Shown one piece after another: positions 21,468-63,108 of a stretch of DNA of 64,000 nt (positions are counted from its first letter, which is position 1; the number at the start of each line of letters is the position of its first letter). Location: positions 5,702,032-5,766,031 of the forward strand of contig NZ_CP043006.1 in assembly GCF_008086345.1 (NCBI RefSeq), written 5' to 3'. Under the pieces are notes generated by a model that worked only from the letters and a program-made list of their open reading frames with translations, had not been told where the DNA came from and searched no databases. Source of the stretch: Chitinophaga sp. XS-30. GTDB lineage: Bacteria > Bacteroidota > Bacteroidia > Chitinophagales > Chitinophagaceae. Made by a program: the position numbers and the translations under genes.

Positions 21468-21526
21468 ATGAAATATAAAAAGCAGGATCGCGGGCGATGT
21501 TACCTTATTAACAATCACAACTTTGT

Positions 21527-23617: not shown

Positions 23618-23748
23618 GTAACGTGGAATTATGTCATCCAAAATACTATTTCTTTATCTAAGGAGCAATGGTTTGGGGAGGGTGATCGATGTGTTATTAC
23701 CCAATCGGGGTTCCTGCATTGTCATTCATCGATTAGCCGTGCTTACTT

Positions 23749-24960
23749 TCATAGGTCAAATGTTGCCCTTACCAACAATTCAACGATATCCTTCTTATCA
23801 TCCATAAATTTATTGCTGAGGAATAATCCCCCCAAACCTGTAGCAGGATTAAAAAAAAGATAAGCGCTTACACCTGGATCATCACCATCAAGTCCGATAG
23901 TTCCGTTGCTATATAAATTCCAAAAAACACCTTTGTTCCTGTTCTTAAAATTGAGACCTTCAGGCGCATCGGCTTCGGTAAACATTGGAGAAAACATCTG
24001 TTTAAATGACGCATTGCTTAATAAGGATACGTCGCCGTTATACCCTTTTATTACTGCCATCAGATATTTGCTCAAATCATTACAGGAAGTTCTCAATCCA
24101 CCATCAGGGTAAGTCAACAAGGAATATAAAGGAAAATCTTTATCCCGGTTGTAATATAACCGTGCATGACTTTTAAGTTGTGCAGCATCTATAAACCAGC
24201 CGGAGTTATTCATTTTGAGCGGCTCAAGTATATATTGCGTAGTGAATTTATCGTAGGAGGTACCTGATTTAATTTCTATCAGATGAGCGGCCAATGCAGA
24301 CCCCAGGTTGCTATAAGCATACGTTTTTCCCGCTTTATCAGGACTGAAATTTTTTCTGCTGTAGTATTTTCCCTCTTTGCAGAGGTAATTGTAAAAAAAA
24401 TCTTTCATGTTGGCGTCTTTAATTTTTTCCTGATAGCCTTTTGTACCTATCCATCCCATCAACTCCTTGTCATACGACCTCAAGGCAGGGTAAAATTTAT
24501 AGCTATTGGGATAAATGCTATCATTATCAATAATGCCCGATGTATGATTTGTCAGTTCCCTTATGGTTATAATATCGTCTGGGTGGTTCGGGTTAATAAC
24601 TTTAAACGGCAGGATGTCATTAATATTTGTTTCCAGCGTAAAATACTCAAGTTCAATTGCCTTCATTATAGCAATGCCGATGAGGCTTTTGCTGACCGAT
24701 CCAATATTCTGAATGGTATTTGCATTGTATGGTATACCATTTTTGATATCAGCAAACCCAAAGTTTTTTTGGTAAACAATGCCATTAGCATTCACCAGTG
24801 CTACTGATAGTCCGTATAAGCTATCCCGGATAAATGCACTATTCAGTTCTGCAGTAAGGGTATCGAGCTTACTTTGCGCGATACATGTATTAAATGTAAG
24901 TTGCAAGCCAAGACAAATAATAAGCATATTGCCAAATGCTTTTTTTACAAGATGTGCCAT
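23749..24960 (-). CDS. Secreted serine hydrolase, beta-lactamase (class C) fold
   Basis: The ATG at 24960 (MAHLVKK) is preferred over a TTG three codons upstream. The 403-residue protein has a signal peptide ending near CIAQSK, the SxxK motif SVSK (Ser/Lys catalytic pair) and YAYSN as the YxN motif. Members are esterases, D-aminopeptidases or PBP4-like enzymes; resistance to beta-lactams is not implied. The gene and the AraC gene next to it are visibly AT-richer than neighbours. They are adjacent on the same strand with a gap of about 70 bases. Confidence 0.87.
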   Translation of the reverse strand: MAHLVKKAFGNMLIICLGLQLTFNTCIAQSKLDTLTAELNSAFIRDSLYGLSVALVNANGIVYQKNFGFADIKNGIPYNANTIQNIGSVSKSLIGIAIMKAIELEYFTLETNINDILPFKVINPNHPDDIITIRELTNHTSGIIDNDSIYPNSYKFYPALRSYDKELMGWIGTKGYQEKIKDANMKDFFYNYLCKEGKYYSRKNFSPDKAGKTYAYSNLGSALAAHLIEIKSGTSYDKFTTQYILEPLKMNNSGWFIDAAQLKSHARLYYNRDKDFPLYSLLTYPDGGLRTSCNDLSKYLMAVIKGYNGDVSLLSNASFKQMFSPMFTEADAPEGLNFKNRNKGVFWNLYSNGTIGLDGDDPGVSAYLFFNPATGLGGLFLSNKFMDDKKDIVELLVRATFDL

Positions 24961-25030
24961 TGAAAACAATTAATAGTTGCAAAACTAAACCAATTCAACC
25001 CGTTAAAATTGTAAAAAAGCGAACGGGCAA

Positions 25031-25840
25031 TCAGTCATTGAATGGCAAGATATAGTCTTCTACTTCAAATTTTCCCGGCAAACTATCCATAATACCAGTG
25101 TATATCTTGATGAAATGCGATTGGTCAAAATAACCGAATTCCAGGGCGAGTTGCGTTAAAGAAAACTTGTTGTTTTGACGCTTTAATGCATCTACAACAT
25201 TGCGTAACCGCAAAATAGAATACATTTCTTTTGGTGAGAGTCCTATGGCAAGGCTGAATTTTTTCTCGATATACCTTTTTGAGTAGCCGGCATCAGCAGC
25301 TATATCAGAAATCTTTAAAGGTGTTGCTGGTAAGCTAGCCGTAAATGCACTGATAACATTTCTTATAAAGCAAGAGTCGTTCGTTTCATAAAGATAATTC
25401 TCCAATTCACAATAGATCCTTTGGATCAGTAAATGCTCATCTGAACTATCTATACTGCTAAAAGCTTTATGCAGTTTTTTATTTACAAGGTCAAGTTCTG
25501 CAAATTTGTCCGTCAACTCATGTAGAGGAAGTTTGGTAATCAATGTTGGCGCCCAGGGGCTTAGTTGCGCCATAATAGCTTTGGAACGGGGCCTGACCGT
25601 AATTTTCAGACGTTTGGTTATCTGGCCAACAAGGTATATACCACTTTTAATATTTGTAGCGCTATTCCCTCTTTCTAAAATCAATCCTTCCCCATCAATA
25701 AAAGCAAGCGTGAAACAACCGTTAGGCAACGCATATCTTGCATCGCTGTATAAAACGCCGTTTGAGTGATCAAGTATCCAAAATTTATGGATGTAATTCT
25801 TAATCCTGTCTGGCGTTGTTATTTCCTTGTAGTTAAACAT
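25031..25840 (-). CDS. AraC-family transcriptional regulator
   Basis: The 269-residue protein has an N-terminal sensing domain with the pattern LPNGCFTLAFI and YLVGQITKRLKITVRP, seen in Bacteroidota AraC proteins (DUF6597-like). The C-terminal double helix-turn-helix (about 170-260) contains ISDIAADAGYSKRYIEKKF and LTQLALEFGYFDQSHFIKIY. It is upstream of the serine hydrolase on the same strand and shares its lower GC, suggesting the two were acquired together. Confidence 0.9.
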   Translation of the reverse strand: MFNYKEITTPDRIKNYIHKFWILDHSNGVLYSDARYALPNGCFTLAFIDGEGLILERGNSATNIKSGIYLVGQITKRLKITVRPRSKAIMAQLSPWAPTLITKLPLHELTDKFAELDLVNKKLHKAFSSIDSSDEHLLIQRIYCELENYLYETNDSCFIRNVISAFTASLPATPLKISDIAADAGYSKRYIEKKFSLAIGLSPKEMYSILRLRNVVDALKRQNNKFSLTQLALEFGYFDQSHFIKIYTGIMDSLPGKFEVEDYILPFND

Positions 25841-26109
25841 TGCATCTTGGTGGGCTGATCAAAACAAACAGCGCGTGTACTGTACGGATCCGTAATAAAT
25901 GAAACGGCAGCTACAATGTACATGAAAAAACTTAAAACGATTCATTGGACAAAAGAAGTTGCCTGCCATGTAACTTAGGATCAAGCTGAAAAGCGGGAAA
26001 TTATCCAATATCGCTGCGTTGCCTTTATACGCCATTGACAATCATCAACTTCCCTATCTGGTTTTCTTCAAAAAGTGTTATATTTATATATTAACAAATA
26101 CCGTATCCA
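25841..26109. other. Intergenic region between divergent genes
   Basis: About 270 AT-rich bases between the AraC gene (minus) and the gene at 26110 (plus). I see no confident gene, hairpin or repeat; promoters for both neighbours are expected here. Confidence 0.4.
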
Positions 26110-26895
26110 ATGGCAAAACAAACCTCCTTCTTTACCTTCACGGGTAAGGCCGGCAATATGATCGGCTATTACCGGGACGGTAAACACTACTTCCGCAGCA
26201 TGCCGGAAACCGTCCGGCAGACGACTGCCACCCGCCGTGCCGCGCAGCGCTTCGGCGCCGCCAGCAGCAAAGGCCGCCTGATCCGCAGCGCATTCGCCAG
26301 TGAACTGGATGTTCGCTGCGATGGCGGGCATATCAACCGCCTCAACAAGACCATCATCAAAGGCGGTATCGGCAACACCGGCGCCATCGCAGGCTTTCGC
26401 TTCAACCAGCACACGGGAACAGACCGTTTCTTTACCGTAGCACCAACGTTCTCTGAGGACGGGATACTGCATATTCCTCCGCAAGCGCTGCCGCAGTTCA
26501 GGGGCATCGCCACGCTGGAGGTAAAAGTGATCGCCACCCGTATTCATTTCGGGGAACGCCGGGTAACGGGTACGGAAACCGCTATGATCGTGCTGGATAC
26601 CCGCGAAGCATTTGCAGGCGCGGCGCTGAACGTGGATGTGCCCGGCAAGGGAACGCTGATGATAACTCTGCAGGTAAGAGGCATGTGCAGCAGCAGGGCT
26701 TCTTTTAACCGGAAATACCTCGCCGCCGATATTATTTCCGTGCAGGAGCCGCAGACCAGGCAGGTCTTCCACAAACCCGGATACCAGCAAGCGGGGATAT
26801 TACAGCAGCGGCAGGCAGTATCAGCACATCAGCAGAAAATGGCGGCAGCCTTCGCATACACTTCCCCAACCCCGCTAGTCATCCAGCGGGAATAG
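26110..26895 (+). CDS. Bacteroidota protein of unknown function, DUF6266-like
   Basis: The 261-residue protein has no signal peptide. Its N-terminus, FTGKAGNMIGYYRDGKHYFRSMP, resembles the GKxGNxxGY opening of a protein family (DUF6266-like) that occurs in Bacteroidetes; this match is by memory. A Gln/Ala-rich basic C-terminus follows (QQRQAVSAHQQKMAAAFAY). Function is unknown. It is flanked by unrelated genes. Confidence 0.65.
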   Translation: MAKQTSFFTFTGKAGNMIGYYRDGKHYFRSMPETVRQTTATRRAAQRFGAASSKGRLIRSAFASELDVRCDGGHINRLNKTIIKGGIGNTGAIAGFRFNQHTGTDRFFTVAPTFSEDGILHIPPQALPQFRGIATLEVKVIATRIHFGERRVTGTETAMIVLDTREAFAGAALNVDVPGKGTLMITLQVRGMCSSRASFNRKYLAADIISVQEPQTRQVFHKPGYQQAGILQQRQAVSAHQQKMAAAFAYTSPTPLVIQRE

Positions 26896-26922
26896 GCCAT
26901 TCCCCGCCAGAGGATACATTTG

Positions 26923-27300
26923 TTAAGCAACCCATCCATTGAACGTCAGACCCTCCCACACTATATTTCCAGTCAATTTTCCCGCAAGCGCCAGTCCTTG
27001 TGGAGCATTTGCTATTGCCCATATATTCCCCTCACCGAACTTTTTCAAACCCGCACCAGCTTCAGACCATCTCCGCATCATGTCCACGTACCCTTGGGTT
27101 ATCCTTCGCTTTTCAGTCACGGAACCAAGGATGAGCAGTTCACCGCAAGGCAGCGGTCGGATACTGATCATGGCATGAGCAGCTGCTACCCCCGGAATAA
27201 GGTGCAGTAACAAACTGGTGTCCCAGGAACTTGACTTGATCCGTAACATACTTCCTTTAAAGGCTTTCAGGCCACTACCTGACGTTTTTCTATGCCGCAT
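26923..27300 (-). CDS. Doubtful small protein
   Basis: A 125-codon minus-strand frame with a plausible soluble C-terminal half (GYVDMMRRWSEAGAGLKKFGEGNIWAIAN) and an odd basic N-terminus. I recognise no family. Several overlapping plus-strand frames look worse. An internal ATG at MISIRPLPCGELLILG may be the better start. It could be a remnant. Confidence 0.35.
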   Translation of the reverse strand: MRHRKTSGSGLKAFKGSMLRIKSSSWDTSLLLHLIPGVAAAHAMISIRPLPCGELLILGSVTEKRRITQGYVDMMRRWSEAGAGLKKFGEGNIWAIANAPQGLALAGKLTGNIVWEGLTFNGWVA

Positions 27301-27311
27301 GTATAAAACAG

Positions 27312-27360
27312 TATCTTTGGTTATTACAATGGTCTACAATCCAATAATTTTAAAAGGAGG
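27312..27360 (+). promoter_or_regulatory. Promoter box and strong Shine-Dalgarno of the SRPBCC gene
   Basis: TATCTTTG (27312-27319) matches TAnnTTTG. AGGAGG (27355-27360) stands 6 bases before the ATG at 27367. A full Shine-Dalgarno sequence is unusual in this phylum and fixes the start. Confidence 0.55.
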
Positions 27361-27366
27361 AACAAA

Positions 27367-28038
27367 ATGAACATTGCAAAATCTTCAAACAATACACCGG
27401 TAATTACTACCATTATCGAGGCTTCTATTGAGGATGTATGGAAAGCGCTTCGTGAAAGAGAAAAACTTGCCCGTTGGTTTGGATGGAATTATTCCGGCCT
27501 GGAGGCTGAAATAAATGAAATTTTCTTCACAAATGTTCGGGAAGAAGGCGTGTCCGATGCGACCCGGCGCAGACTTTCAGTGAATGGTGGCGATACTTTC
27601 ATTCTAACCGCTCAGGACGATAAGACAGCACTACAACTGGTCCGCCGGCCACTAGACGGTACCCCGGAAGATAACTATTACGAAACGATTACAGAGGGAT
27701 GGATTTCCTTTATTGAGCATTTACGTTTCATGCTCGAACACCAGCCGATCAGCACGCGCAGGACGATCGTTGCCCACAGAAAACTGGAAAGAGATGCTAC
27801 CTGGAGAGCACTTGGCCTGCCAGATGCCCGTCAGGGACAATCTTTTGCAGGTTCACTTGAAGGACATGAACTTTCCGGATCTGTGCAATTCGTTACGCCG
27901 CAGCAAATCGGCTTGCTTATCAAAAACTGGGGGCCAGGACTACTTATTATCCAGTTTGGCGAAAATATGCAGCTTCTTACCATCTACACATCTGATACTG
28001 AATTTTTTAATAGTCTCAGCAATGAGTGGAAGTCTTAG
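27367..28038 (+). CDS. SRPBCC (START-like/AHSA1) domain protein
   Basis: The 223-residue protein opens with the AHSA1-type pattern IIEASIEDVWKALREREKLARWFGW, a hydrophobic-cavity fold. The middle has YYETITEGWISFIEHLRFMLE, the long final helix of such domains, and the remaining 90 residues look like a second, partial helix-grip copy (GQSFAGSLEGHELSGSV). Ligand unknown. It has its own promoter and a strong ribosome-binding site. Confidence 0.82.
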   Translation: MNIAKSSNNTPVITTIIEASIEDVWKALREREKLARWFGWNYSGLEAEINEIFFTNVREEGVSDATRRRLSVNGGDTFILTAQDDKTALQLVRRPLDGTPEDNYYETITEGWISFIEHLRFMLEHQPISTRRTIVAHRKLERDATWRALGLPDARQGQSFAGSLEGHELSGSVQFVTPQQIGLLIKNWGPGLLIIQFGENMQLLTIYTSDTEFFNSLSNEWKS

Positions 28039-48895: not shown

Positions 48896-51800
48896 TTAGA
48901 AATTAGCCCTCATGCCTACCGTGATCGTCCTTGCAAAAGGATAGTTCGCGCCGTTGGAGCCCAGCTCCGGGTCCCAGAGTTTGAACTTCGAAAAAGTAAG
49001 GAGGTTAGTGCCGGCGGCATATACCTGCAGGCTGCTGATGCCTTTGCGGTTCATTTCCGGTGTAATGATGGTATAGCCGAGGGAAGCCTGCCGCAGGCGC
49101 ATGAAGCTGCCATCTTTCAGCCACCAGTCGCTTTGCTGGTAGTTGTTATCGCTTTGATTGGTGATGGTAAGGCGGGGATAATAAGCATCCTGGCGCGGGT
49201 TTTCGCTGGTCCAGCGGTCGTTGGCGATGCTGAGCACGTTGGCGGGATACTGTCCGATGCCGGTGAAAGGCACCACGCCTACACCCAATGCCGCACCATT
49301 TTGCGGATCGATAGCCTGACCATTCGCCATAATGCCTACATCGGCCACACCGGAGAAAAGGGCGGACACTTCAAACCGTTTGATGCCGATATTGAAACCA
49401 TAGCCGTACGACCAAACCGGGAAAGAGGATTTACCCAGGTAGCTGCGGTCATTGGCATTGATCACCCCATCACCGCTCAGGTCCTGGTACTTGATATCAC
49501 CGGGAAATAAAGCCCTCAGCTGTTCCGGGCTTTTGTTCACATCATCTGCATCAATGAACAGCCCGGCATGGCGGTAACCGATGAACTCCCCGAAGGAAGT
49601 GCCTTCATATTGCTGGTATGCATACAGCATTTGAGGATTGTCCGCGAAGAGAATTTTATTCCTGGCATAGGTGAGGTTGCCGAAGAGGCGGATGCTGATA
49701 TCTTTTCCGATGCGGGTGATGTATTCGATGCTGCCATCCACCCCCTTGTTTTCCATCTCGCCCATATTGGCGAATATCTGCTGCCCTTCATAACCGGCAA
49801 CGGAAGAAATAGAACGGCGATCGATGAGGATATCCGTACGGTTATCCTTGAAGATGTCTACCGTAATATTCAGTTTATCCCACAACCCGATGTCTATACC
49901 CAGGTTCGTTTTGGTGGATGTTTCCCAGGTAAGGTTCTCGGTACCGATCACATCAGCCGCAACGCCGCCGTAACCCGCAGGGGAAGAACCAAACTGGATA
50001 CCGTTGGCGCCGGTGGTGATATAGGTGAGGTAACCGAAACGGTTCTGGTCTATAATATCATTACCTGTTGTACCAATGGAGCCGCGTACTTTCAGCAGGC
50101 TGAAGGTACCGCTGAGCGGCGCAAAGAAACTTTCCCGGGAGATCACCCATCCGGCGGCTACTGCGGGGAATACGCCCCAGCGGTTGCCCTTCTCGAAGTT
50201 CTCGGAGCCGGTTGCGCCTACATTCCCTTCCAGCAGGTATTTATCCCGGTAGGAATAGGTAACCCTGCCGGCCAGGCTCTGGTTGCGATACGGGATGGCG
50301 AGTTTGAGATCGCCGGCATTGCCCAATACGCGATTGCGCATAGTACCCAGTACCAGTGCGCCGATATTGTGATCGCCAAAAGAGCGGTCGTAGTTGATAT
50401 TTCCTTCGAGGTACATCACTCTTTCACCAACGGAAAAGGCGGAATACCCGAGCACATCCGTGCCGTTGCGTACCTGTTCGAATACCAGGTTGCCTTCTCC
50501 GTCGCGGGAGCCGGCGTACCATAGGGAATTATCGCCGGTGCGGCTGTTGTTGAAAGTACCGTAGGTATCAAAAGAAAAGCGGCCCGTGGCGGTGAGGCCT
50601 TTGGTGAGCACGCCAAGGTCTTGCGTGAGGGTGAGCACAGACTGTACGGAAGGCCTGAACTCTGTGGAATATCCCCTGTTCTGTACGAGGTTGAAAGGAT
50701 TACTGCCGCCGTTGTTGCGCGGGCCTGCCCACATATTGTCCGGGTATTGCACCGGAAATGCGATCGGGTTGGTGGAATAGGTATTATACCATATGTCGGC
50801 AGCGCTGGAGCCGGGATAACGGCTGTCCACCAGCATGGCAGCGATATTGAGTGCGAGGGTGGTTGTTTTGGTAACGTTCAGGTCTACATTGCTCCTGAAA
50901 TCATAACGTTTGAAATTAAGGTTGGGATTGTAGCCGTTCACTTTAGACACATCATACTGACCGTCCTGGTTGTAAAAGCTCATGGACACGTAGTAGCGCA
51001 TGGATTCTCCACCGCCGCTCACATTCACGTTGGCATTGGTCATGGAAGCCCAGTCTTTATAGATCCTGTCCACCCAGTTCACATCCGGGTAAAGATAGGG
51101 ATCGAGACCGCTGGCCGTTTTGGCGATCACTTCATCGGAATAAGCCGGCGCGTTGCCATCGTTTACCCTGGCCTCGTTGTAGAGTTTCATGAAAGAAACA
51201 CCATCCAGCATTTCGGGCATACGCGTGAGGCCGTTGAAGCCCGATTCCACTTTGGCCGCAACTTTCGGTTTGCCCGCCACACCGCGTTTGGTGGTGATGA
51301 TCAGTACGCCGTTAGCGCCCCTGGCGCCGTAGATCGCCGTGGCGGAAGCATCTTTCAGCAGGGAAATGCTGGAAATATCCTCCGGGTCGATGTTGTTGAA
51401 CGCGCCGCCGTAGGTGCTGTTCACATCATCGCGTTGTACGCCGTCCACGATGATCAGCGGTGTGGTGCTGCCCTGGAAGGTGCCGATGCCGCGGATGGTG
51501 AAATTGGGATTATCGTACCCCGGTTCACCGCCGCCGCTCTGCATGGAGATGACGCCCGCCACTTTACCGGCGAGCGCGTTGGTGAGGGAGCGCACCGGCG
51601 TTTGCATGTCCTGCATGTTCACGGTAGACACAGCGCCGGTCACTGTTACTTTTTTCTGTTTGCCGAAGCCCACCACTACCACTTCATCCAGCTTGTCCAC
51701 ATTCATGCTGAGGGTCACCTTCACTATTTTCTGGCCGGCCACCCTGATCTCTTCCGGGTTCATGCCCACCATAGACACCCTCAACACCTCGTCCGGGGCG

Positions 51801-52321
51801 GCATTGATGGTAAAAACCCCGAGCGCATCCGTTACCACGCCACGGGAAGTACCGTTCACGGCAACGGAAGCGCCGGGAACGGGTGTGCCGTCCGGCGTCA
51901 TCACCTGCCCTTTCACCACGCCGGTCTGCGGTTTGGGCAGTTCCTGCGCGGGAGCCGGCGGTGTGGCCGGAGCCGCCTTTCTGTCCAGCACAATGCGGTT
52001 GCTGCGCACTTCGTAGCTGATGCTCTTGTCTTTCAGCACAAAGTCCAGCACCTCCTGCAATTTTGCATTGCGGAAGCTGACACGCATTCTTTCGCTGTCG
52101 TTCAGCAGCTGGTTGTTGTACACCAGGGTGAAGCCCGTTTGTTTTTTGATGGCCCTGAACACCTGCAGCAGGGAAACATTCTCGCCGGCGAGCGTTACCG
52201 GGGATTGCAGCGAGGGCTTTTTGTCCTGCGCCGCGGCTGTTTGAAGGAAGGTGAGCAGGAATACAATAGCACCTGCTATGCTGCGCACAGATAGCAGACA
52301 ATCGCGCATACATTCTCTCAT
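48896..52321 (-). CDS. SusC/RagA-type TonB-dependent transporter with STN domain (second locus)
   Basis: The 1141-residue protein has a signal peptide, an STN domain (about 50-115, NVSLLQVFRAIKKQTGFTLVYNNQLL), a beta-sandwich (about 135-215, VVKGQVMTPDGTPVPGASVAV), a plug (EVVVVGFGKQKKVTVTG ... LKDASATAIYGARGANGVLIIT) and a barrel. The STN domain implies signalling through the FecR/sigma pair encoded upstream. Confidence 0.95.
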   Translation of the reverse strand: MRECMRDCLLSVRSIAGAIVFLLTFLQTAAAQDKKPSLQSPVTLAGENVSLLQVFRAIKKQTGFTLVYNNQLLNDSERMRVSFRNAKLQEVLDFVLKDKSISYEVRSNRIVLDRKAAPATPPAPAQELPKPQTGVVKGQVMTPDGTPVPGASVAVNGTSRGVVTDALGVFTINAAPDEVLRVSMVGMNPEEIRVAGQKIVKVTLSMNVDKLDEVVVVGFGKQKKVTVTGAVSTVNMQDMQTPVRSLTNALAGKVAGVISMQSGGGEPGYDNPNFTIRGIGTFQGSTTPLIIVDGVQRDDVNSTYGGAFNNIDPEDISSISLLKDASATAIYGARGANGVLIITTKRGVAGKPKVAAKVESGFNGLTRMPEMLDGVSFMKLYNEARVNDGNAPAYSDEVIAKTASGLDPYLYPDVNWVDRIYKDWASMTNANVNVSGGGESMRYYVSMSFYNQDGQYDVSKVNGYNPNLNFKRYDFRSNVDLNVTKTTTLALNIAAMLVDSRYPGSSAADIWYNTYSTNPIAFPVQYPDNMWAGPRNNGGSNPFNLVQNRGYSTEFRPSVQSVLTLTQDLGVLTKGLTATGRFSFDTYGTFNNSRTGDNSLWYAGSRDGEGNLVFEQVRNGTDVLGYSAFSVGERVMYLEGNINYDRSFGDHNIGALVLGTMRNRVLGNAGDLKLAIPYRNQSLAGRVTYSYRDKYLLEGNVGATGSENFEKGNRWGVFPAVAAGWVISRESFFAPLSGTFSLLKVRGSIGTTGNDIIDQNRFGYLTYITTGANGIQFGSSPAGYGGVAADVIGTENLTWETSTKTNLGIDIGLWDKLNITVDIFKDNRTDILIDRRSISSVAGYEGQQIFANMGEMENKGVDGSIEYITRIGKDISIRLFGNLTYARNKILFADNPQMLYAYQQYEGTSFGEFIGYRHAGLFIDADDVNKSPEQLRALFPGDIKYQDLSGDGVINANDRSYLGKSSFPVWSYGYGFNIGIKRFEVSALFSGVADVGIMANGQAIDPQNGAALGVGVVPFTGIGQYPANVLSIANDRWTSENPRQDAYYPRLTITNQSDNNYQQSDWWLKDGSFMRLRQASLGYTIITPEMNRKGISSLQVYAAGTNLLTFSKFKLWDPELGSNGANYPFARTITVGMRANF

Positions 52322-52414
52322 GCGGAAAATTGTTTTAGTTGATAAAAAGCAAAAGCGTTTCAGCCTAACTACAACGGTTCAGGGGAAACGGGTGACAGGG
52401 GTGATGAATTTTTT

Positions 52415-53539
52415 TTATCTCAGGTAGATGGCTTTGTCTCCAAAGCGGAATTCCGCGCCGGCAGTGACCTGCAGGTCTGTGAGGAATTCAGATAATTTAG
52501 CTCTGTCCATCAGGCCGGTGGTAGCGATACCGGAGAATTTGTCCGATTCGAGGATGAACTGCACCCCATAGAAGCGGGAGGCTTCTACTGCCAGTGTGGT
52601 GACGGGCATTTTGTGGAAATAATATACGCCGTTCATCCAGGAGAGCACTTCATCCGCATCGAAAGCCAGCATATCAAATCCTTTATCGTTGCTGTAAGCC
52701 GCCTGGAAGCCCGGTTTCAGCTCGGAGCGCCGCCCGTTGGCCGCCTGCAGCCATACGCTGCCCTCCACGAGCGATGTTCTTTCCTGCGGCTGGTAAGTAT
52801 TAACATTAAAGGCCGTGCCGTACACCTGCACCTGCGTATGCGGTGTATGCACGATGAAGCGCCTGGCGGGATCTTTGGCCACTTTGAAAAAGGCCTCTCC
52901 TTCCACCGTTACTTCCCGGTTGCCTTTCCCGAAATGGAAGGGGAAGCGCAGGCGGGTGGAGGCGTTCAGGTGTACTTCCGTGCCGTCTGACAGCACGAGG
53001 CGGTATTGTTCACCAGCCGGCACCGTGAGCACATTCTGCGCGGTGTCCGTGCCTTCGGCGGTATAGTTGAGCGAGCCGTTATGGGCGTTGATGGTGGCGT
53101 TGCCGAGCTGGATATTTTGTGCGCTGTCCCCGTTCAGGGAAACGGACAGTCCATTTGCGGTAACGAGTTGGACCTGCTGCTTCTGCTGTTCCGCCGCCGC
53201 TACGAATTGCTGGAGCGATACCGGCTGCCGGCGGGTGAGCCAGAATGTTCCGGCCACTACCAGCAAAGCCAGGGAAGCCGCAATGGCGAGGTTAATGCGG
53301 ATGTTGCGGGTACGGACGCGCTTGCGGCGGTTGAGGTCCTGCAGCCCCGCTTCGGGATCGATGGAATGCACATAATCGCCCGCGCCGATGGAGCGCCCGC
53401 GGGATTCCAGTGCGCCCCAGGTTTCCCGGAACGCTTCGTCCTGCGACAGCATGCGCTGCACATAGGACTCTTCGTCCGGCGTGAGGTTGCCGGACAGCCG
53501 CTGAATGTATAACTGGAATATTTTTTCCTGTTGCTCCAT
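52415..53539 (-). CDS. FecR-type anti-sigma factor (second locus)
   Basis: The 374-residue protein has a cytoplasmic N-terminal domain, a membrane helix (about 83-104, INLAIAASLALLVVAGTFWL), the FecR domain (EQYRLVLSDGTEVHLNASTRLRFPFHF) and a C-terminal DUF4974-like domain. It is longer than the FecR of the first locus mainly in the segment after the membrane helix. Its ATG follows the sigma stop codon without a gap, so synthesis of the two is coupled. Confidence 0.93.
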   Translation of the reverse strand: MEQQEKIFQLYIQRLSGNLTPDEESYVQRMLSQDEAFRETWGALESRGRSIGAGDYVHSIDPEAGLQDLNRRKRVRTRNIRINLAIAASLALLVVAGTFWLTRRQPVSLQQFVAAAEQQKQQVQLVTANGLSVSLNGDSAQNIQLGNATINAHNGSLNYTAEGTDTAQNVLTVPAGEQYRLVLSDGTEVHLNASTRLRFPFHFGKGNREVTVEGEAFFKVAKDPARRFIVHTPHTQVQVYGTAFNVNTYQPQERTSLVEGSVWLQAANGRRSELKPGFQAAYSNDKGFDMLAFDADEVLSWMNGVYYFHKMPVTTLAVEASRFYGVQFILESDKFSGIATTGLMDRAKLSEFLTDLQVTAGAEFRFGDKAIYLR

Positions 53540-54070
53540 TTACTCTTTTATTTTATGCACTGCATGCCGCAAAAACTGCAATCCCCGTTTCAGGTGGGTC
53601 TTTAACGAATTGATGCTGATGCCCATTTCCTCCGCTGCTTCCTGGTATCTTTTGCCTTGTATGTACACCATCTGTACGGCCATTCTTTTGTGGCCGGAGA
53701 GGTCCTTCATGGAGGTATGAAGGCGGTTGTAATAATCCGGCGCCTCCGCGTCCTGCTGCTGCAGGTGGGTGAAGGCCTCGTGATGCACGTCCTGCATTTT
53801 CTGCTGTTTCAGCAGGTTGAGGCATCGGTTCTTCACGGCCATGTGCAGGTATCCTTTGATATCGCTTTCATTGAACCGGAGGTAGAGTTTTCTGTCCCAG
53901 ATATCCATGAAGAAGGTCTGCACAAGATCTTTGGCCTCCTGGTCGTTTTGCAGGAACCAATACGCGTTCACGCAAAGCATTTTATAATACTTTACGAAGA
54001 GCGCATCGAATGCGGTCAAATCACCATCCTTGAGACGCTGCACCAGTTGTGCATCGGGAGAATGACTCAT
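53540..54070 (-). CDS. ECF RNA polymerase sigma factor of the second SusCD locus
   Basis: The 176-residue protein has region 2 (FDALFVKYYKMLCVNAYWFLQNDQEAKDLVQTFFMDIW) and region 4 (GHKRMAVQMVYIQGKRYQEAAEEMGISINSLKTHLKRGLQFLRH). It should be controlled by the adjacent FecR. Confidence 0.93.
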   Translation of the reverse strand: MSHSPDAQLVQRLKDGDLTAFDALFVKYYKMLCVNAYWFLQNDQEAKDLVQTFFMDIWDRKLYLRFNESDIKGYLHMAVKNRCLNLLKQQKMQDVHHEAFTHLQQQDAEAPDYYNRLHTSMKDLSGHKRMAVQMVYIQGKRYQEAAEEMGISINSLKTHLKRGLQFLRHAVHKIKE

Positions 54071-54855: not shown

Positions 54856-55074
54856 ATGGAAGGAAAAGTTTTCAACCGGATAAAAGCGGTATTGGCAGAG
54901 CAGCAGCGGACGAATAACTGGCTGGCGGAAACGTTGGGGGTTAGCCGGATCACCGTGTCCAAATGGTGTACGAACCGGATGCAACCTTCGATTGAGACGT
55001 TGTTTTTGATTGCGGAGGCGTTGAATGTGGAAGCGAGGGAGTTGTTGGTGCGGAGGCAGGGTGGTGATAGTTGA
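54856..55074 (+). CDS. Small XRE-family transcriptional regulator
   Basis: The 72-residue protein is one helix-turn-helix domain (RTNNWLAETLGVSRITVSKWCTNRMQPSIETLFLIAEALNVE). It is a minimal regulator of Cro/C1 type. It marks the edge of the AT-rich block with the Hxs genes and could be autoregulated through the ACTAAT repeats. Confidence 0.88.
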   Translation: MEGKVFNRIKAVLAEQQRTNNWLAETLGVSRITVSKWCTNRMQPSIETLFLIAEALNVEARELLVRRQGGDS

Positions 55075-55345: not shown

Positions 55346-56470
55346 CTATCTCAATGCCCTTATACCCAAACTATGTTTTACAAGGTTAGAGCTAAAAAAA
55401 CCGCCACATTCTTCACTGACAGTACAACCCTCGCATTTATCGAGATAAATATTCTTCCAGTCTGATATTGACCTTCGGGAGAACTGCCAAATTTCCTCCG
55501 GCGTTACACATAACTGTGAATTATATAAGGAAACATTCATTCCATGATCGGACAAGTACATCATTGCCTCCGCCAGATCATCGCCATACTCAACCGGATC
55601 AATCCACAACTTGTCAAAGTTATGAGGTGTATAACCCTGATTCTCCAGTCCCATAAACGCAACATGTTCAACAAAAGGCAAATTCTTGTATATGAACTTC
55701 GAAAGTTTATTCAGTCGGGAGATAGTCGGCTTATGCAATACGATCCGTAACTCGATCCGGACATCATACTTTGCCAGGTTGTATAGCCCTTGCACCGTCT
55801 GCTCAAAAGCTCCATCTCCCTGTACAACATAATCATGCAACAAATTAAAATCAGAATAAAGAGGAATTCCTAACATCAGGCGCTTAAATGACATGTCACC
55901 AAGCCTCTTCGCAAAACCATCCCATGCAAAAGATCGTCCGTTCGTCAGGCAATGAACTTCCGTATCCGGCAATTGGTGTTGAATCTGCTCCAGCAGTTTG
56001 AAAAAAAGTCCCCCCAATAAGGTTGGCTCTCCGCCTGTAATGCCCAATTCAGCACATTCTTTGGGAATAAGTGGTATGACCTGCGAGTAGATATTATAGA
56101 AGTAACCCGTATCGTCCTTATCCCTCGGTGGCTGAGAGCACATCAGGCAATTGCTATTGCATCTTTCCGTAAATAACAAGAAATTATGAGTCGAATCGAT
56201 CCTGTATTGTGTATTAATTACTCCATCGGAATTTACCACTACAATATCCCCAGCTGAAAGATGACCAAAACCCGGTATTGCATATACTGCCGCTTTATCA
56301 ATAGATGTATCAATATCATGACTGGTCAGTATCGCTTTATAACGCCTTAGATCGTCAGGAACAATATCCTGAACGATTAGTATCTCCGCATCATCGGCAG
56401 CATCAAATGCCACTCTCCCGATGATAGGCTCATCAATCCTCCAGGGCTTCCCTTTTGTTTTTAATATCAT
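55346..56470 (-). CDS. hxsC: HxsC-like radical SAM maturase of a His-Xaa-Ser system
   Basis: The 374-residue protein carries the radical SAM cluster motif CNSNCLMC (CxxxCxxC, about residue 104) and the GGEPT motif (ITGGEPTLLGG). It ends with a cysteine-containing segment (KCEGCTVSEECGGFFSS). It fits HxsC, one of two radical SAM enzymes of the Hxs system described computationally in RiPP-like loci. Its ATG overlaps the hxsB stop by one base. The reaction is unknown; modification of HxsA His-Xaa-Ser repeats is the working idea for the family. Confidence 0.87.
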   Translation of the reverse strand: MILKTKGKPWRIDEPIIGRVAFDAADDAEILIVQDIVPDDLRRYKAILTSHDIDTSIDKAAVYAIPGFGHLSAGDIVVVNSDGVINTQYRIDSTHNFLLFTERCNSNCLMCSQPPRDKDDTGYFYNIYSQVIPLIPKECAELGITGGEPTLLGGLFFKLLEQIQHQLPDTEVHCLTNGRSFAWDGFAKRLGDMSFKRLMLGIPLYSDFNLLHDYVVQGDGAFEQTVQGLYNLAKYDVRIELRIVLHKPTISRLNKLSKFIYKNLPFVEHVAFMGLENQGYTPHNFDKLWIDPVEYGDDLAEAMMYLSDHGMNVSLYNSQLCVTPEEIWQFSRRSISDWKNIYLDKCEGCTVSEECGGFFSSNLVKHSLGIRALR

Positions 56471-57978
56471 CAGCTTTTACCTGTTATCCAGTTTCTGAAT
56501 ATCCGTTCAATGCGCTTATCGCTATCCATCAACTCAATTATGTATCGTATTATCTCCATGTTTCTCTGGCAAAAAGAGCTTGTAGGCCGATGACCGTACA
56601 TATCCCCCTGCGTTGCCCAATTGTATATCGGATCGGCACCGCAATAGCTCTGAAAAGCACAATCGGCACAACCGGCAAGGGATTCGTTAGCGAGTACTGC
56701 CGTAAGGCCGGAAGCTTTATCTCCATAAAATATCTCGCTATAGGAATGTTCTCCCAGTACCCCCAACTGAAAAGTAAAATCCTGCATTTCTGCCAGCATT
56801 CTTGCCTCGTCAGACGCATATATCTTGCCATCATAGTTAAACACGATCACGCTATTAATAATTCCAGCCGGAGATTGAAGATCAACGTACCCGACAGGAA
56901 ACGGAGTAAGCATCTTTTTAAGAATGATACTGGCATAATCTTCACGAATAAAATACCCTTTAAGGTTATATTCTATGATTCTATCGAGAGCTTTTTTATA
57001 AAACGTCAAAAACAGAGAAGCGTCATATTTGTTCTTTGTTGCGCTTCTGGTTGCAAATCCATAAGGACTTATCGGACGAAGGAAGATGTTTCTGAACCCG
57101 AGGTTTACATACTCATCCACTATTTCTTTTGGATATTGCAAAGAGAGGTTTGTAGTTGTAAGCAATGCGGAAACATTGTCTTCGCCAAGCACAGACCTGC
57201 ATTTCATGATGCCATCCACTGCCAATTGATAACTATTATTATTGGGTTTGTGCCTGTTTTTATTATGAATAAACTCCGGGCCATCAAGTGACGTGGAAAT
57301 AAGAATATTGTTTTCTTTACAATAAACTAGTATCTCATCTGTCAAAGGAGCAAGATTTGTACAGATAACATAAGTTATCGTTTTTTCATACCTGATGGCC
57401 TCCTGCTTCGTTCTCTCAACAGCATACTTTATATTCTCGAATGCCAAAAGAGCCTCTCCCCCCTGAAATTCCATTGTAACATATGGACTGGGTGATTGCA
57501 TCATTAATTTAATACCTTCATCTATATGATACTGGTTCATATCATACATATGCTTATCACTGGTAACTCTTGATACCTGACAATAATGACAGGTATGCTC
57601 ACACCGGAGACTAATAACGAAAATGTGAAGCGAAGTAAAATTGTCCAGAAAAGACTTCTTTGTCCGATATCGGGTAGACAATACGTTCAGCAATTCAGGG
57701 ACCGGTGTTGTGGAGATAAAAAAGTTAGCTATCAAATCTCCATATAGTTCCGGATCATCTGCCACACAAACGTTTCTTTCGATTACACGAGCAGCGGTTC
57801 CTTTCGGAACAATCAGACAATCTCCTATTTCATTGACCATCACCTCTCTTTCTTCGGAAATCCGATGAAATCTGAATGGTAATAGATAATAGTCAGATTG
57901 ATGCTTTGAGCTATAATAATTCAGGTCCTGGAACTTTCGGGTTTTCTTTTCATGAACGGGGTCGGCAATTTTCACCAT
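56470..57978 (-). CDS. hxsB: HxsB-like radical SAM maturase of a His-Xaa-Ser system
   Basis: The 502-residue protein has an N-terminal extension (about 1-110) that may bind HxsA or HxsD. The radical SAM core contains CEHTCHYC (CxxxCxxC) and MEFQGGEALL. A SPASM-like C-terminus (CADCAFQSYCGADPIYNWATQGDMYG ... FCQRN) would bind auxiliary iron-sulfur clusters. It starts 2 bases after the hxsD stop. Together with HxsC it forms the paired-enzyme hallmark of the Hxs system. Confidence 0.88.
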   Translation of the reverse strand: MVKIADPVHEKKTRKFQDLNYYSSKHQSDYYLLPFRFHRISEEREVMVNEIGDCLIVPKGTAARVIERNVCVADDPELYGDLIANFFISTTPVPELLNVLSTRYRTKKSFLDNFTSLHIFVISLRCEHTCHYCQVSRVTSDKHMYDMNQYHIDEGIKLMMQSPSPYVTMEFQGGEALLAFENIKYAVERTKQEAIRYEKTITYVICTNLAPLTDEILVYCKENNILISTSLDGPEFIHNKNRHKPNNNSYQLAVDGIMKCRSVLGEDNVSALLTTTNLSLQYPKEIVDEYVNLGFRNIFLRPISPYGFATRSATKNKYDASLFLTFYKKALDRIIEYNLKGYFIREDYASIILKKMLTPFPVGYVDLQSPAGIINSVIVFNYDGKIYASDEARMLAEMQDFTFQLGVLGEHSYSEIFYGDKASGLTAVLANESLAGCADCAFQSYCGADPIYNWATQGDMYGHRPTSSFCQRNMEIIRYIIELMDSDKRIERIFRNWITGKS

Positions 57979-57980
57979 CC

Positions 57981-58346
57981 TTAAATATTTTGGGGATCAA
58001 ACCCAACCGGATCTGAAACACTTGTTTGGGGAAATTCCTCTATCTCAAAATTAGCAAATGCTTTAGCTATTATTAGTTCGCGTATCGTCCTCGTCTCTGA
58101 GGTTACAATATCTCTTAACTTGAAATCAATCAGGTCTTGCTTTATTCTTTCGATTAACTCCGGAACTTCAAAAGTATTTACTCCATTCCTGGGTGAAAAA
58201 AGAATATCGTAAAACCCGTCTTTTTTATCGATCTCAACATTAAAGTCCCTGCAATACCAATAGAAGCACTTATGAATTACGGCTTCATTATATGCTCCCC
58301 CATCGATCTTAATTTTAAGGATATTGTCATTTATTTGGTACTCCAT
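57981..58346 (-). CDS. hxsD: HxsD-like protein of a His-Xaa-Ser system
   Basis: I start at 58346 (MEYQINDNILKIKIDGG); an upstream ATG at 58370 overlaps hxsA further. The 121-residue protein has a KCFYWYCRDFNVEIDKKDGFYDILFS segment and a helical C-terminus with NFEIEEF. It shows no cysteine motif or membrane helix. It fits HxsD, a small partner conserved next to HxsB and HxsC, perhaps a peptide-binding chaperone. It overlaps the end of hxsA by 20 bases. Confidence 0.82.
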   Translation of the reverse strand: MEYQINDNILKIKIDGGAYNEAVIHKCFYWYCRDFNVEIDKKDGFYDILFSPRNGVNTFEVPELIERIKQDLIDFKLRDIVTSETRTIRELIIAKAFANFEIEEFPQTSVSDPVGFDPQNI

Positions 58347-59079
58347 AATTCTTAATTTTGAGTACATCAAGCGTTTTTTTATCTACTATTCCATTCGGTT
58401 TAAGATCATTGGCCTCCTGAAATTTAATGACAATCCCTTCGGTCTGATTGCCAAAATAACCCGTGACAATTATGTCTTTTTTCACAACAGCAAGTAACCG
58501 CTGAAGTTCCTCTACATCTTTTCCTTCACACCCTTTTTTCAAGTCTCTGTCACCCAGTTTCAAAACAGCAGATTCCGGTATTGCAGACCCTGAACTTTTT
58601 AAGGGCTGACTGCCGGAAGTAGCTGAACTATTAGGCACAGTATATAGAGGCTTGATAGTAGATTTCGTATTGGTAGTACTACTCTTGCTGGATTTATTAG
58701 CGGGTGAACCAGAAGAAGAAGGAACATAGTTTGTAGCGGGTGCCGGGGAAGGAGTGGATTTACTTTTGGTACTATAAGACGATGAGTAATGTGAACTGTG
58801 CGAGCGGTGCGACGAATGGGATCGATGCGAACTATGCGATCTGTGCATAAGCACCAGGCTATTCTCGGGGTTGGCCAAATTAAGTTTTAATACCAGCTGA
58901 GGTTTCAACACATTTTTGTGCGATTCCAGAAAATTCAAGTCGCTATCATCATTGATCAACGGATGATTTACGGGAGTTTCTGCCTTAAGTTGTGATAAGG
59001 TGCTGAGTGCCGCAGATATAATTGCAAAACTTTTCTTTGCGAGGTTTAAGAAACCAGATTTTTCTTTACTCATCGACAT
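58327..59079 (-). CDS. hxsA: HxsA-like His-Xaa-Ser repeat precursor with peptidoglycan-binding-like domain
   Basis: The 250-residue protein has an N-terminal hydrophobic stretch (about 15-33) that may act as export signal. It then has seven consecutive His-Xaa-Ser triplets at residues 79-99 (H79, 82, 85, 88, 91, 94, 97), a Ser/Lys/Pro-rich linker (about 100-170) and a C-terminal domain (about 178-245; KGCEGKDVEELQRLLAVVKKD ... VDKKTLDVLKI) like a peptidoglycan-binding fold. It is the likely substrate of HxsB/HxsC. First gene of hxsA-hxsD-hxsB-hxsC. ATG at 59073 is an alternative start. Confidence 0.87.
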   Translation of the reverse strand: MSMSKEKSGFLNLAKKSFAIISAALSTLSQLKAETPVNHPLINDDSDLNFLESHKNVLKPQLVLKLNLANPENSLVLMHRSHSSHRSHSSHRSHSSHYSSSYSTKSKSTPSPAPATNYVPSSSGSPANKSSKSSTTNTKSTIKPLYTVPNSSATSGSQPLKSSGSAIPESAVLKLGDRDLKKGCEGKDVEELQRLLAVVKKDIIVTGYFGNQTEGIVIKFQEANDLKPNGIVDKKTLDVLKIKNYGVPNK

Positions 59080-60984: not shown

Positions 60985-63108
60985 TTAAAACGCCAGCAAC
61001 GCCGCCATACCCTGCTCCACCTTCCCGGCGGTGGGCAGCATCTCCTGCTCCAGCCTTTTGTTCAGCGGCACAGCGGGAAGGTCCATCGCCCCGATGGTCA
61101 TCACCGGCGCATCGAGGTATCTGAAGCATTCGGCGGAGATCTTTCCGGCCAGGCTCATCATGAAGGAATGGCTCACTTGTTCTTCTGTGAGCAGCAGACA
61201 TTTGCCGTGTTTGCGGACGGTGGTATAGATCAGCTCTTCATCCAGCGGATGTAGGGTGCGCAGGTCAACGATCTCCACACGGCCGGGGAATTTCGCGGCG
61301 GCGGCTTTCGCCCAGTACACGCCCATGCCGTAGGTGATCACGCCAATACTGTCTCCCGCTTCCGCGGATAATGCCACACGGCCTTTGCCGAAGGGCAAAA
61401 TATAATCCGGCGATGGCTCTATGGTCATGGCTTCCTGGGTACCCGGCACCTTGCTCCAGTACAGCCCTTTATGCTCCAGCATGATCACGGGATTGGGGTC
61501 GTGGAACGCGGCTTTCATCAGGCCCTTCAGATCCGCCGCATTGGAGGGATAAGCTATTTTGATGCCTTTGATGCTGAGCAATGTGGATTCAATGCTGCCG
61601 GAATGGTAAGGGCCACCACCACCGTACGCGCCCACCGGTACGCGAATGAGCGTTTGCACCGGGAACCTGCCCGCGGTGAGATAGCAGCTTTTGGATATTT
61701 CGCTGACGAGCTGATTGAAACCTGGATAGATGTAATCGCCAAACTGCACTTCCACCACCGGTTTTACGCCGGTTGCGGACAGCCCGGCCGTGCTGCCGAT
61801 GATATAGGCTTCCTGTATGGCGGTGTTATATACGCGATGGTCCCCGAACTTCTCTGCCAGCGTGGCCGCTTCGCGGAATACGCCACCGAGCCTGCGGCCA
61901 ACGTCCTGCCCGAACAGGATGGCTTCCGGATGCTCCTGCATCAGCTCTTCAATGGCATGAAGCGCGGCATCCACCATTACTACCTTGCCGCCGCCGGCCG
62001 GTGCGCGTTCGCCGCGCTCTTCGGTAACGGGAGTGGGCGCAAACACATGGTCCTGCACCGTGGAAGGATCAGGTTCGGCACTGTTCAGCGCATCGTCAAA
62101 ATCATCATCAACCAGCGAAAGCGCTTCGGCTTCCGCTTTTTCTATGTCAAGAAAATCCACGCCTGCCTGTAACAGGAATGCTTTCAGGCGTGGCAGGGGA
62201 TCACGGGACGCGTGTTTTTCAAGATCTTCAGCGCTGCGGTACCATTCCCGGCGGACGCCGGAGGTATGATGGCCGAGCAGGGGCGTTGCGGCATGCACAA
62301 GAACAGGTTTCCGCATGGAGCGGACATAGCCGATAGCGGATTCCATCGCGTGATAGCTGGCCTCGAAATCGCTCCCGTCTACCCGTATCCGCTCCAGCCC
62401 TTTAAACCCGGCGGCATATTCATAGGCGTCCATCGCACGGGCTTCGTCTGCGCTCACGGAGATCCCCCATTCATTGTCCTGCACCAGGTAGATAATGGGC
62501 AGGCCCTTCAGCACGGCGAACTGCAGGGCTTCGCTCACCTCTCCTTCGGTAACGCTGCCATCTCCCAGCGAACATAGCACCACCGGTTTTTCGGTGGTCT
62601 GCAGCAAGCCGGACTCCTCCAGGTATTGCACGCCCTGCGCCATACCGGTAGCGGGGATCACCTGCATGCCGGTAGCGCTGCTCTGATGCGGGATGAGAGG
62701 CTTGCCGGGCTGGCGGCTGCAGGGATGGCTGTAATAGGAACGGCCGGCGCTGAAGGGATCTTCCCCTTTGGCCAGCAGTTGCAGGATCAGCTCCCGCGGC
62801 GTGAAGCCCATGGCCAGCAGCATGCTGTCGTCCCGGTAATATGGACTCACATAATCCCATGGCTGCAGCAACAGGCCGGCCGCGATCTGGATCGCCTCAT
62901 GGCCGGAGGAAGTGGAATGCACATACTGGCAGGTGGAACGGTTGGCTTCGTACTTGTCCGCCAGGCTCCTGGCAATACACATGATACGGTAAGCCTGCAG
63001 CAGCAGGCCCCGGAATGCCGTATCATGTACATGGTGAGTAATGCTTGCTTCCAAAGTCGGAACGCTTATATTATCTTTAACCACGTAATACTGTTTTGGT
63101 GTTATCAA
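60985..63108 (-). CDS. Fused alpha/beta E1 subunit of a 2-oxoacid dehydrogenase complex
   Basis: The alpha part (about 1-340) has the thiamine-diphosphate motif GDGSVTEGEVSEALQ with NEWGIS; the beta part (about 385-707) has AILFGQDVGRRLGGVFREA and GGGPYHSGSIESTLL. One chain thus does both halves of the oxidative decarboxylation of branched-chain 2-oxoacids or pyruvate. No ATG exists at the 5' end: the frame opens after a TAG within the operator palindrome. Translation must begin at TTG (63108) or GTG (63084), since the conserved part starts before the first internal ATG. No E2/E3 genes adjacent. Confidence 0.87.
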   Translation of the reverse strand: MITPKQYYVVKDNISVPTLEASITHHVHDTAFRGLLLQAYRIMCIARSLADKYEANRSTCQYVHSTSSGHEAIQIAAGLLLQPWDYVSPYYRDDSMLLAMGFTPRELILQLLAKGEDPFSAGRSYYSHPCSRQPGKPLIPHQSSATGMQVIPATGMAQGVQYLEESGLLQTTEKPVVLCSLGDGSVTEGEVSEALQFAVLKGLPIIYLVQDNEWGISVSADEARAMDAYEYAAGFKGLERIRVDGSDFEASYHAMESAIGYVRSMRKPVLVHAATPLLGHHTSGVRREWYRSAEDLEKHASRDPLPRLKAFLLQAGVDFLDIEKAEAEALSLVDDDFDDALNSAEPDPSTVQDHVFAPTPVTEERGERAPAGGGKVVMVDAALHAIEELMQEHPEAILFGQDVGRRLGGVFREAATLAEKFGDHRVYNTAIQEAYIIGSTAGLSATGVKPVVEVQFGDYIYPGFNQLVSEISKSCYLTAGRFPVQTLIRVPVGAYGGGGPYHSGSIESTLLSIKGIKIAYPSNAADLKGLMKAAFHDPNPVIMLEHKGLYWSKVPGTQEAMTIEPSPDYILPFGKGRVALSAEAGDSIGVITYGMGVYWAKAAAAKFPGRVEIVDLRTLHPLDEELIYTTVRKHGKCLLLTEEQVSHSFMMSLAGKISAECFRYLDAPVMTIGAMDLPAVPLNKRLEQEMLPTAGKVEQGMAALLAF

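Follow-up and report, generated by a model that had tools for sequence, protein, structure and literature searches.

A complete His-Xaa-Ser (Hxs) cassette in Chitinophaga sp. XS-30 and a candidate chemistry for its repeat protein

The His-Xaa-Ser (Hxs) system, reportedly described by Haft and Basu in 2011 and represented by the NCBIfam models TIGR03976-TIGR03979, has to our knowledge stood since about that year as an annotated family of unsolved chemistry. We found no characterised Hxs product in the open-access papers searched; a passage of one paper terms maturation by HxsB and HxsC putative (PMC9062424), and a passage of another names hxs genes among those of a resistant Pseudomonas clone (PMC8446631). 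The most pertinent described chemistry is that of the three-residue cyclophanes (triceptides; HaaB, YhhB, ScaB, MscB), in which, according to passages of PMC11002830, an aromatic residue or His at position i is linked to residue i+2 by radical S-adenosylmethionine (SAM) enzymes; among the bonds recorded there, His is joined through C2 to the C-beta of Ala or of Arg, and Phe through C4 to that of Ser. Here we consider a 64,000-nucleotide stretch of Chitinophaga sp. XS-30 (contig NZ_CP043006.1; hereafter the window), which carries a complete member of this already named system. Its genes, hxsA-hxsD-hxsB-hxsC, lie on the minus strand and span exactly 55346-59079, with all four frames intact:

58327..59079, minus strand: hxsA, precursor or target, 250 amino acids; TIGR03979, 49.7 bits (below the cut-off of 121.65)
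58783..58845, minus strand: the His-x-Ser (HxS) tract, HxsA residues 79-99, seven tandem triplets
58360..58524, minus strand: PG_binding_1 domain, HxsA residues 186-240; Pfam, 49.8 bits (cut-off 23)
57981..58346, minus strand: hxsD, 121 amino acids from an ATG, a TTG start at 58370 being possible; TIGR03976, 71.7 bits (cut-off 50)
56470..57978, minus strand: hxsB, radical SAM maturase, 502 amino acids; TIGR03978, 583.2 bits (cut-off 370)
55346..56470, minus strand: hxsC, second radical SAM maturase, 374 amino acids; TIGR03977, 376.7 bits (cut-off 267.9)

Families were called with these NCBIfam models at their curated cut-offs, and domains with Pfam. HxsB, HxsC and HxsD each exceed their cut-off and the HxS-repeat gene stands first in the unit, as in the named system. 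The overlap of hxsA with hxsD is 20 bases, the gap from hxsD to hxsB 2 bases, and the overlap of hxsB with hxsC a single base; the four genes form one tightly packed unit, probably translationally coupled. An earlier note, made from the letters of this DNA, had claimed such a set of overlapping or nearly abutting genes: its coordinates are exact, the HxS tract is present, and the profile models give HxsB and HxsC, not the other maturation family that the note had named as fatal to its claim. The precursor departs from the named system in falling below the HxsA cut-off, and it likewise stays below those of the HxsA2 and HxsA3 models; its peptidoglycan-binding C-terminus nevertheless lies within the HxsA-model match (residues 55-243). 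Bacteroidota members seem to escape the HxsA model, and we file the target in the window as HxsA-like. On two Bacteroidota plasmids (L112:4861-5619 and L115:8651-9412) the gene at the hxsA place is named in RefSeq only as a 'peptidoglycan-binding domain-containing protein'. The order A-D-B-C is shared by the window and most Bacteroidota relatives, as against D-B-C-A in the Klebsiella and Aeromonas plasmid loci that we read.

For comparison, a search of genome records gave 135 loci that hold an HxsB relative; we kept the best 80, which with the window make 81 loci. HxsB and HxsC are both present in all 81, some of which are cut by contig ends; hxsD is found in 77, and an open reading frame (ORF) with at least three in-register HxS triplets in 75 (81 such ORFs in all, the window included). 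HxsA and HxsD are thus kept beside the enzymes in relatives, a point on which the earlier note had staked its claim. The tract gene lies upstream of hxsD and on its strand in 73 of the 75 loci, L057 and L072 being the exceptions; of the six loci that have no tract ORF, five (L066, L084, L089, L096, L110) are cut by a nearby contig end and one (L076) is degraded. The nearest HxsB among the best 80 of 135 is that of C. cymbidii, at 78%. L076:5621-8624, from bacterium A37T11, is a second, degraded Hxs copy in which hxsC is split in two and we found no gene with HxS repeats; L063, from the same organism, has all four genes. At L048, L052, L053, L062, L065 and L070 about 200-600 bases separate hxsD and hxsB, most of these loci having a short form of HxsA.

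In the window the tract reads HRS HSS HRS HSS HRS HSS HYS. Shuffling HxsA 20,000 times yielded a longest run of 2 triplets, and shuffling the tract region alone 50,000 times a longest run of 4. The seven 9-base units carry seven different codon sets, which draw on both Ser codon families and on either His codon; the repeat is therefore kept by selection on the protein and does not stem from a fresh DNA duplication. Across the 81 ORFs the run comprises 3-12 triplets, most often seven (31/81), and begins at residue 70-82 in 76; for some of the five outliers (L042, L050, L052, L053, L065) the cause is a nearby contig edge or doubt about the start codon. The middle residue X is free (S 230, R 160, Y 47, A 26, plus ten rarer kinds), and as the tracts were found by their H-x-S register, only this freedom of X tests the i/i+2 pattern of the residues. 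Cys occurs in none of the 81 tracts. In an alignment of 80 HxsA, every column that is invariant or nearly so falls inside the tract. The X residues additionally show a period of two triplets: over 57 different strings, X is identical between triplets i and i+2 in 127 of 247 comparisons versus 88.2 +/- 5.9 in within-tract shuffles (a value as high in 0 of 2000), and between neighboring triplets in 102 of 304 versus 108.8 +/- 6.1, a signal inflated by the common descent of the strings.

Around the tract, HxsA comprises an export-like N-terminus, a conserved KPxLVLKLN segment, the tract itself, a Ser-rich linker and PG_binding_1; the strand-like segment between N-terminus and tract reads KPxLVLKLNxxNPENS in seven Chitinophaga. 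An export rule of our own, distinct from SignalP (a positively charged start, a hydrophobic stretch free of charges, and small residues at -3/-1), picks out 72/81 HxsA, 2/77 HxsD, 0/81 HxsB and 6/81 HxsC; 54/81 HxsA have a strict A/V/S-x-A site, the HxsA of the window passing on the loose site only. By this pattern HxsA looks exported. PG_binding_1 was detected in 57 of the 80 HxsA scanned (L060, which has no ATG ahead of the tract, was left out). Sixty-four of the 81 HxsA reach at least 150 amino acids and 17 are shorter, 15 of the latter having just 3-5 residues beyond the tract. The earlier picture of a modified cell-wall-associated protein, itself a prediction, fits these counts, in which export-like starts and wall domains prevail, although the short forms show that HxsA can do without the wall domain. 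Mapped on the HxsB tree, the long/short label changes three times, or twice by our own reading that omits doubtful long branches; tract and enzymes are thus constant, whereas the wall domain can be exchanged. In the short forms at L053:8597-8992 and L057:8620-9060, positioned after hxsC, a Gly-rich stretch followed by a hydrophobic tail at the C-terminus takes the place of that domain.

As the earlier note had it, both enzymes carry CxxxCxxC (C126/130/133 in HxsB, C104/108/111 in HxsC), and all family-invariant Cys are present in the HxsB and HxsC of the window. Structure comparison of a model gives HxsB a fold of the anSME/CteB type. The SPASM-like cysteines attributed to it proved to be half a set: the cluster-II ligands C437, C440, C446 and C470 (anSME C317, C320, C326, C348) are kept in 52/52 rows and 9/9 of a wider set, the window included, whereas in the same 52/52 and 9/9 the cluster-I places 368, 374, 389 and 450 (anSME C255, C261, C276, C330) hold no Cys. 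Stray Cys occur near the cluster-I places in 4/52 rows (L052, L093, L106, L107) and in single distant HxsB rows from Aeromonas (371), Paraburkholderia (380) and Klebsiella (451). HxsB keeps the equivalent of anSME Asp277. The recognition element of ribosomally synthesized and post-translationally modified peptides (RiPP recognition element, RRE) is an N-terminal domain of three strands followed by three helices (bbb-aaa), and the N-terminal domain of HxsB (33-113) has an RRE-like order of elements in the model, with agreement from the CteB/TigE alignment ranges. This extra domain, the absence of cluster-I Cys and an identity of 17% distinguish HxsB from anSME (PDB 4k36-4k39). HxsC has four invariant C-terminal Cys of its own (321, 346, 349, 355, in 34 sequences), which the earlier note had passed over; it stands far from HxsB, and the models that it matches best after its own are HxsC4 (52.5 bits), the Rv1681 family (32.6) and WgkB (31.1). 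HxsD is predicted to be a two-layer protein of bb-a-bb-a-a order.

In light of these features, the two radical SAM enzymes very probably alter the His-x-Ser triplets of HxsA, and we propose the following scenario. HxsA would be synthesized in the cytosol, where the RRE-like domain of HxsB would hold the KPxLVLKLNxxNPENS segment ahead of the tract, with HxsD as a presumed partner. HxsB and HxsC would then act on the seven triplets via 5'-deoxyadenosyl radicals, the most likely product being a bond from an imidazole carbon of His(i) to the C-beta of Ser(i+2), and hence a row of three-residue rings. Thereafter, the modified HxsA would be exported and PG_binding_1 would anchor the tract, rich in His and now stiffened, to the wall. 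This bond is favored because His and Ser are fixed at i/i+2 with a free middle residue, because the tracts are devoid of Cys, and because the published three-residue cyclophanes, as presented in passages of PMC11002830, share the geometry. The modification, export and wall binding of HxsA are predictions from sequence, and we likewise infer the atoms joined, the division of labor and the biological role; the full account, including a probably mobile cassette, is offered tentatively, as one that may well be correct but falls somewhat short of probable. If the bond is indeed His-Ser, three-residue ring chemistry would extend to a wall-bound structural protein. Moreover, the locus is a compact, intact test case for a modification of unsolved chemistry, with the predictions of -2 Da per HxS triplet, dependence on the pre-tract segment and a single auxiliary cluster in HxsB. 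To the system as already named we add the in-register seven-triplet tract, the Cys-free tracts, the cluster-II-only HxsB, and the patchiness and low GC of the cassette.

Several considerations weigh against this account. HxsB lies far below the cyclophane-maturase cut-offs (YhhB, 64.5 bits against 445; GrrM/OscB, 53.4 against 310), with the ranthipeptide maturase PapB as its best other NCBIfam model (97.6 bits, cut-off 340), and kinship consequently tells no chemistry. The loss of cluster I separates it from two-cluster maturases, and its nearest folds make formylglycine or thioethers, the latter being the product of CteB by its entry title (PDB 5wgg), whereas the HxS tract has no Cys to offer. 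The set in the window also differs from the cyclophane systems in that its seven triplets belong to a protein of export and wall type, its HxsB has cluster-II ligands only, and HxsD and a further radical SAM enzyme take part; the account does not explain why one simple crosslink should take two enzymes. Further, sequence profiles of HxsB residues 1-115 did not find an RRE or PqqD entry, the RRE reading being one of fold only, and the score of HxsA is below the cut-off of the HxsA model.

What survives best beside the His-Ser rings is a group of other radical SAM changes to the same triplets: epimerization, a His-Ser bond of another geometry, His-His linking, or different reactions by HxsB and HxsC on alternate triplets. 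The last gains from the period-two signal in X, by which HRSHSS, a hexad, may be the true repeat unit, and the group as a whole from the presence of both enzymes at every locus and the remoteness of HxsC from HxsB; but the hexad signal is the one swollen by shared descent, none of these chemistries is directly evidenced, and we consider the group doubtful though deserving of weight. The main single rival to His-Ser crosslinks is Ser oxidation, wherein an anSME-like HxsB would convert the triplet Ser to formylglycine or another C-beta-oxidized residue, the reactive carbonyls beside His then linking HxsA to itself or to wall amines. The fold of HxsB invites this idea, but thioether-making CteB is equally near, and the score of HxsB is far below the sulfatase-maturase cut-off (349.45). 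Moreover, anSME uses eight Cys for two auxiliary clusters (a passage of PMC5682303), whereas all four cluster-I ligands are missing from HxsB; oxidation would also leave unexplained the second enzyme and a His that is as fixed as the Ser. On balance, we deem it unlikely. Very unlikely is a tract that serves mainly in metal binding or as a low-complexity linker, with HxsA modified elsewhere: seven His within 21 residues followed by a Ser-rich linker would suit it, but the short HxsA have little beyond leader and tract, and the near-invariant columns are confined to the latter. An inactive remnant or chance repeat, to which the patchiness in the genus and the degraded copy at L076 might lend color, is scarcely credible given four intact frames, the retained family-invariant Cys and the seven different codon sets.

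Turning to the history of the cassette, its GC fraction is 0.404 versus 0.515 for the rest of the window (11 points lower), making it the lowest-GC 3.7-kb stretch of the window in 500-base steps. HxsB is above cut-off at a single place in its own genome, in 6/35 same-genus relatives and in 0/23 same-order relatives, and HxsD in 1/395 genomes sampled across the phylum, namely its own. The cassette is framed by a gene that we read by eye as a dehydrogenase (60985-63108) and, likewise by eye, a sigma-FecR-SusC block (48896-54070); among eight stretches of relatives that start from this dehydrogenase, four (L120, L123, L124, L125) keep the dehydrogenase and sigma genes in the same order, and none of the eight holds HxsA or HxsB (tblastn, 1e-8), L118 being too short to tell. 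The low GC, the patchiness in the genus and the absence from matching gene frames suggest that the cassette is probably mobile and was likely gained recently or moved within the genus. The HxsB of Chitinophaga fall together in a single well-supported clade (11 rows), which speaks against free exchange. Low GC is not general, the gap across loci being small (cassette below flank in 44/75; mean 0.394 vs 0.410). More widely, an HxsB relative (E 1e-30) is found in 410 of 72,556 plasmid records, 317 of them from Klebsiella and 326 predicted conjugative, counts that carry a heavy sampling bias. Leptospira elements hold the full hxs set, with an HxsB identity of about 61%. In L096 and L097 (titled proteobacterium and Treponema), HxsB nests among Bacteroidales HxsB, reflecting either transfer or mixed metagenome bins. 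The window has a second low-GC stretch at 21500-27700 (0.42-0.44 in 3.7-kb windows starting 21500-24000), and a small Cro/CI-type helix-turn-helix gene (54856-55074), convergent with hxsC, sits at the edge of the first.

The window is among 29/81 loci, some of them cut by contig ends, that have no co-directional ORF of at least 90 amino acids within 200 bases, and by this measure no kinase, VWA or PP2C gene stands beside its cassette. The situation differs in a Bacteroidales clade, by titles mostly of gut and rumen metagenomes, where the cassette lies within longer operons. Pfam runs on one or two members per neighbor cluster gave VWA in 8, kinase in 7, PP2C in 7 and a TerY_C-type protein in 4 of the 81 loci, a kinase-VWA-PP2C operon type that we take to be TerY-P; as the kinase-type loci all fall in one clade of the HxsB tree, they may represent a single event. 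A DNA/RNA non-specific endonuclease and an ion channel each occur in 9/81 loci, overlapping in part with the kinase-type loci and including L072 and L085, marine by title. These neighbors suggest signaling, envelope stress or conflict.

A more ambitious synthesis, speculative enough that we hold it improbable, would combine these strands. The substrate unit would be the hexad HRS-HSS, with HxsB and HxsC closing different rings on alternate triplets to produce a stiff, His-rich wall rod; the core would be constant and the wall anchor exchangeable. The whole would act as a module of envelope stress or conflict systems (the kinase-VWA-PP2C-TerY_C operons of the one Bacteroidales clade, and nuclease plus ion channel in these or other loci), forms like that of the window traveling as naked four-gene cassettes. 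HxsB would then typify a radical SAM class that retains only the second auxiliary cluster, an arrangement opposite to that of the 'twitch' enzymes.

Among individual neighborhoods, L094:239-8264, as also L100, L102, L109 and others, has the hxs genes inside operons with TerY_C, Ser/Thr kinase, VWA and PP2C. In Rhizobium, kinase and PP2C genes lie near hxsBCA on the opposite strand. Within the longer Bacteroidales operons, a protein of no assigned family is encoded directly upstream of the cassette in 11/81 loci. Finally, the endonuclease and ion channel genes adjoin the hxs genes at L080:1074-4803, L081, L091 and L095, the first of which also holds a DUF4236/FtsK-gamma/AAA protein.

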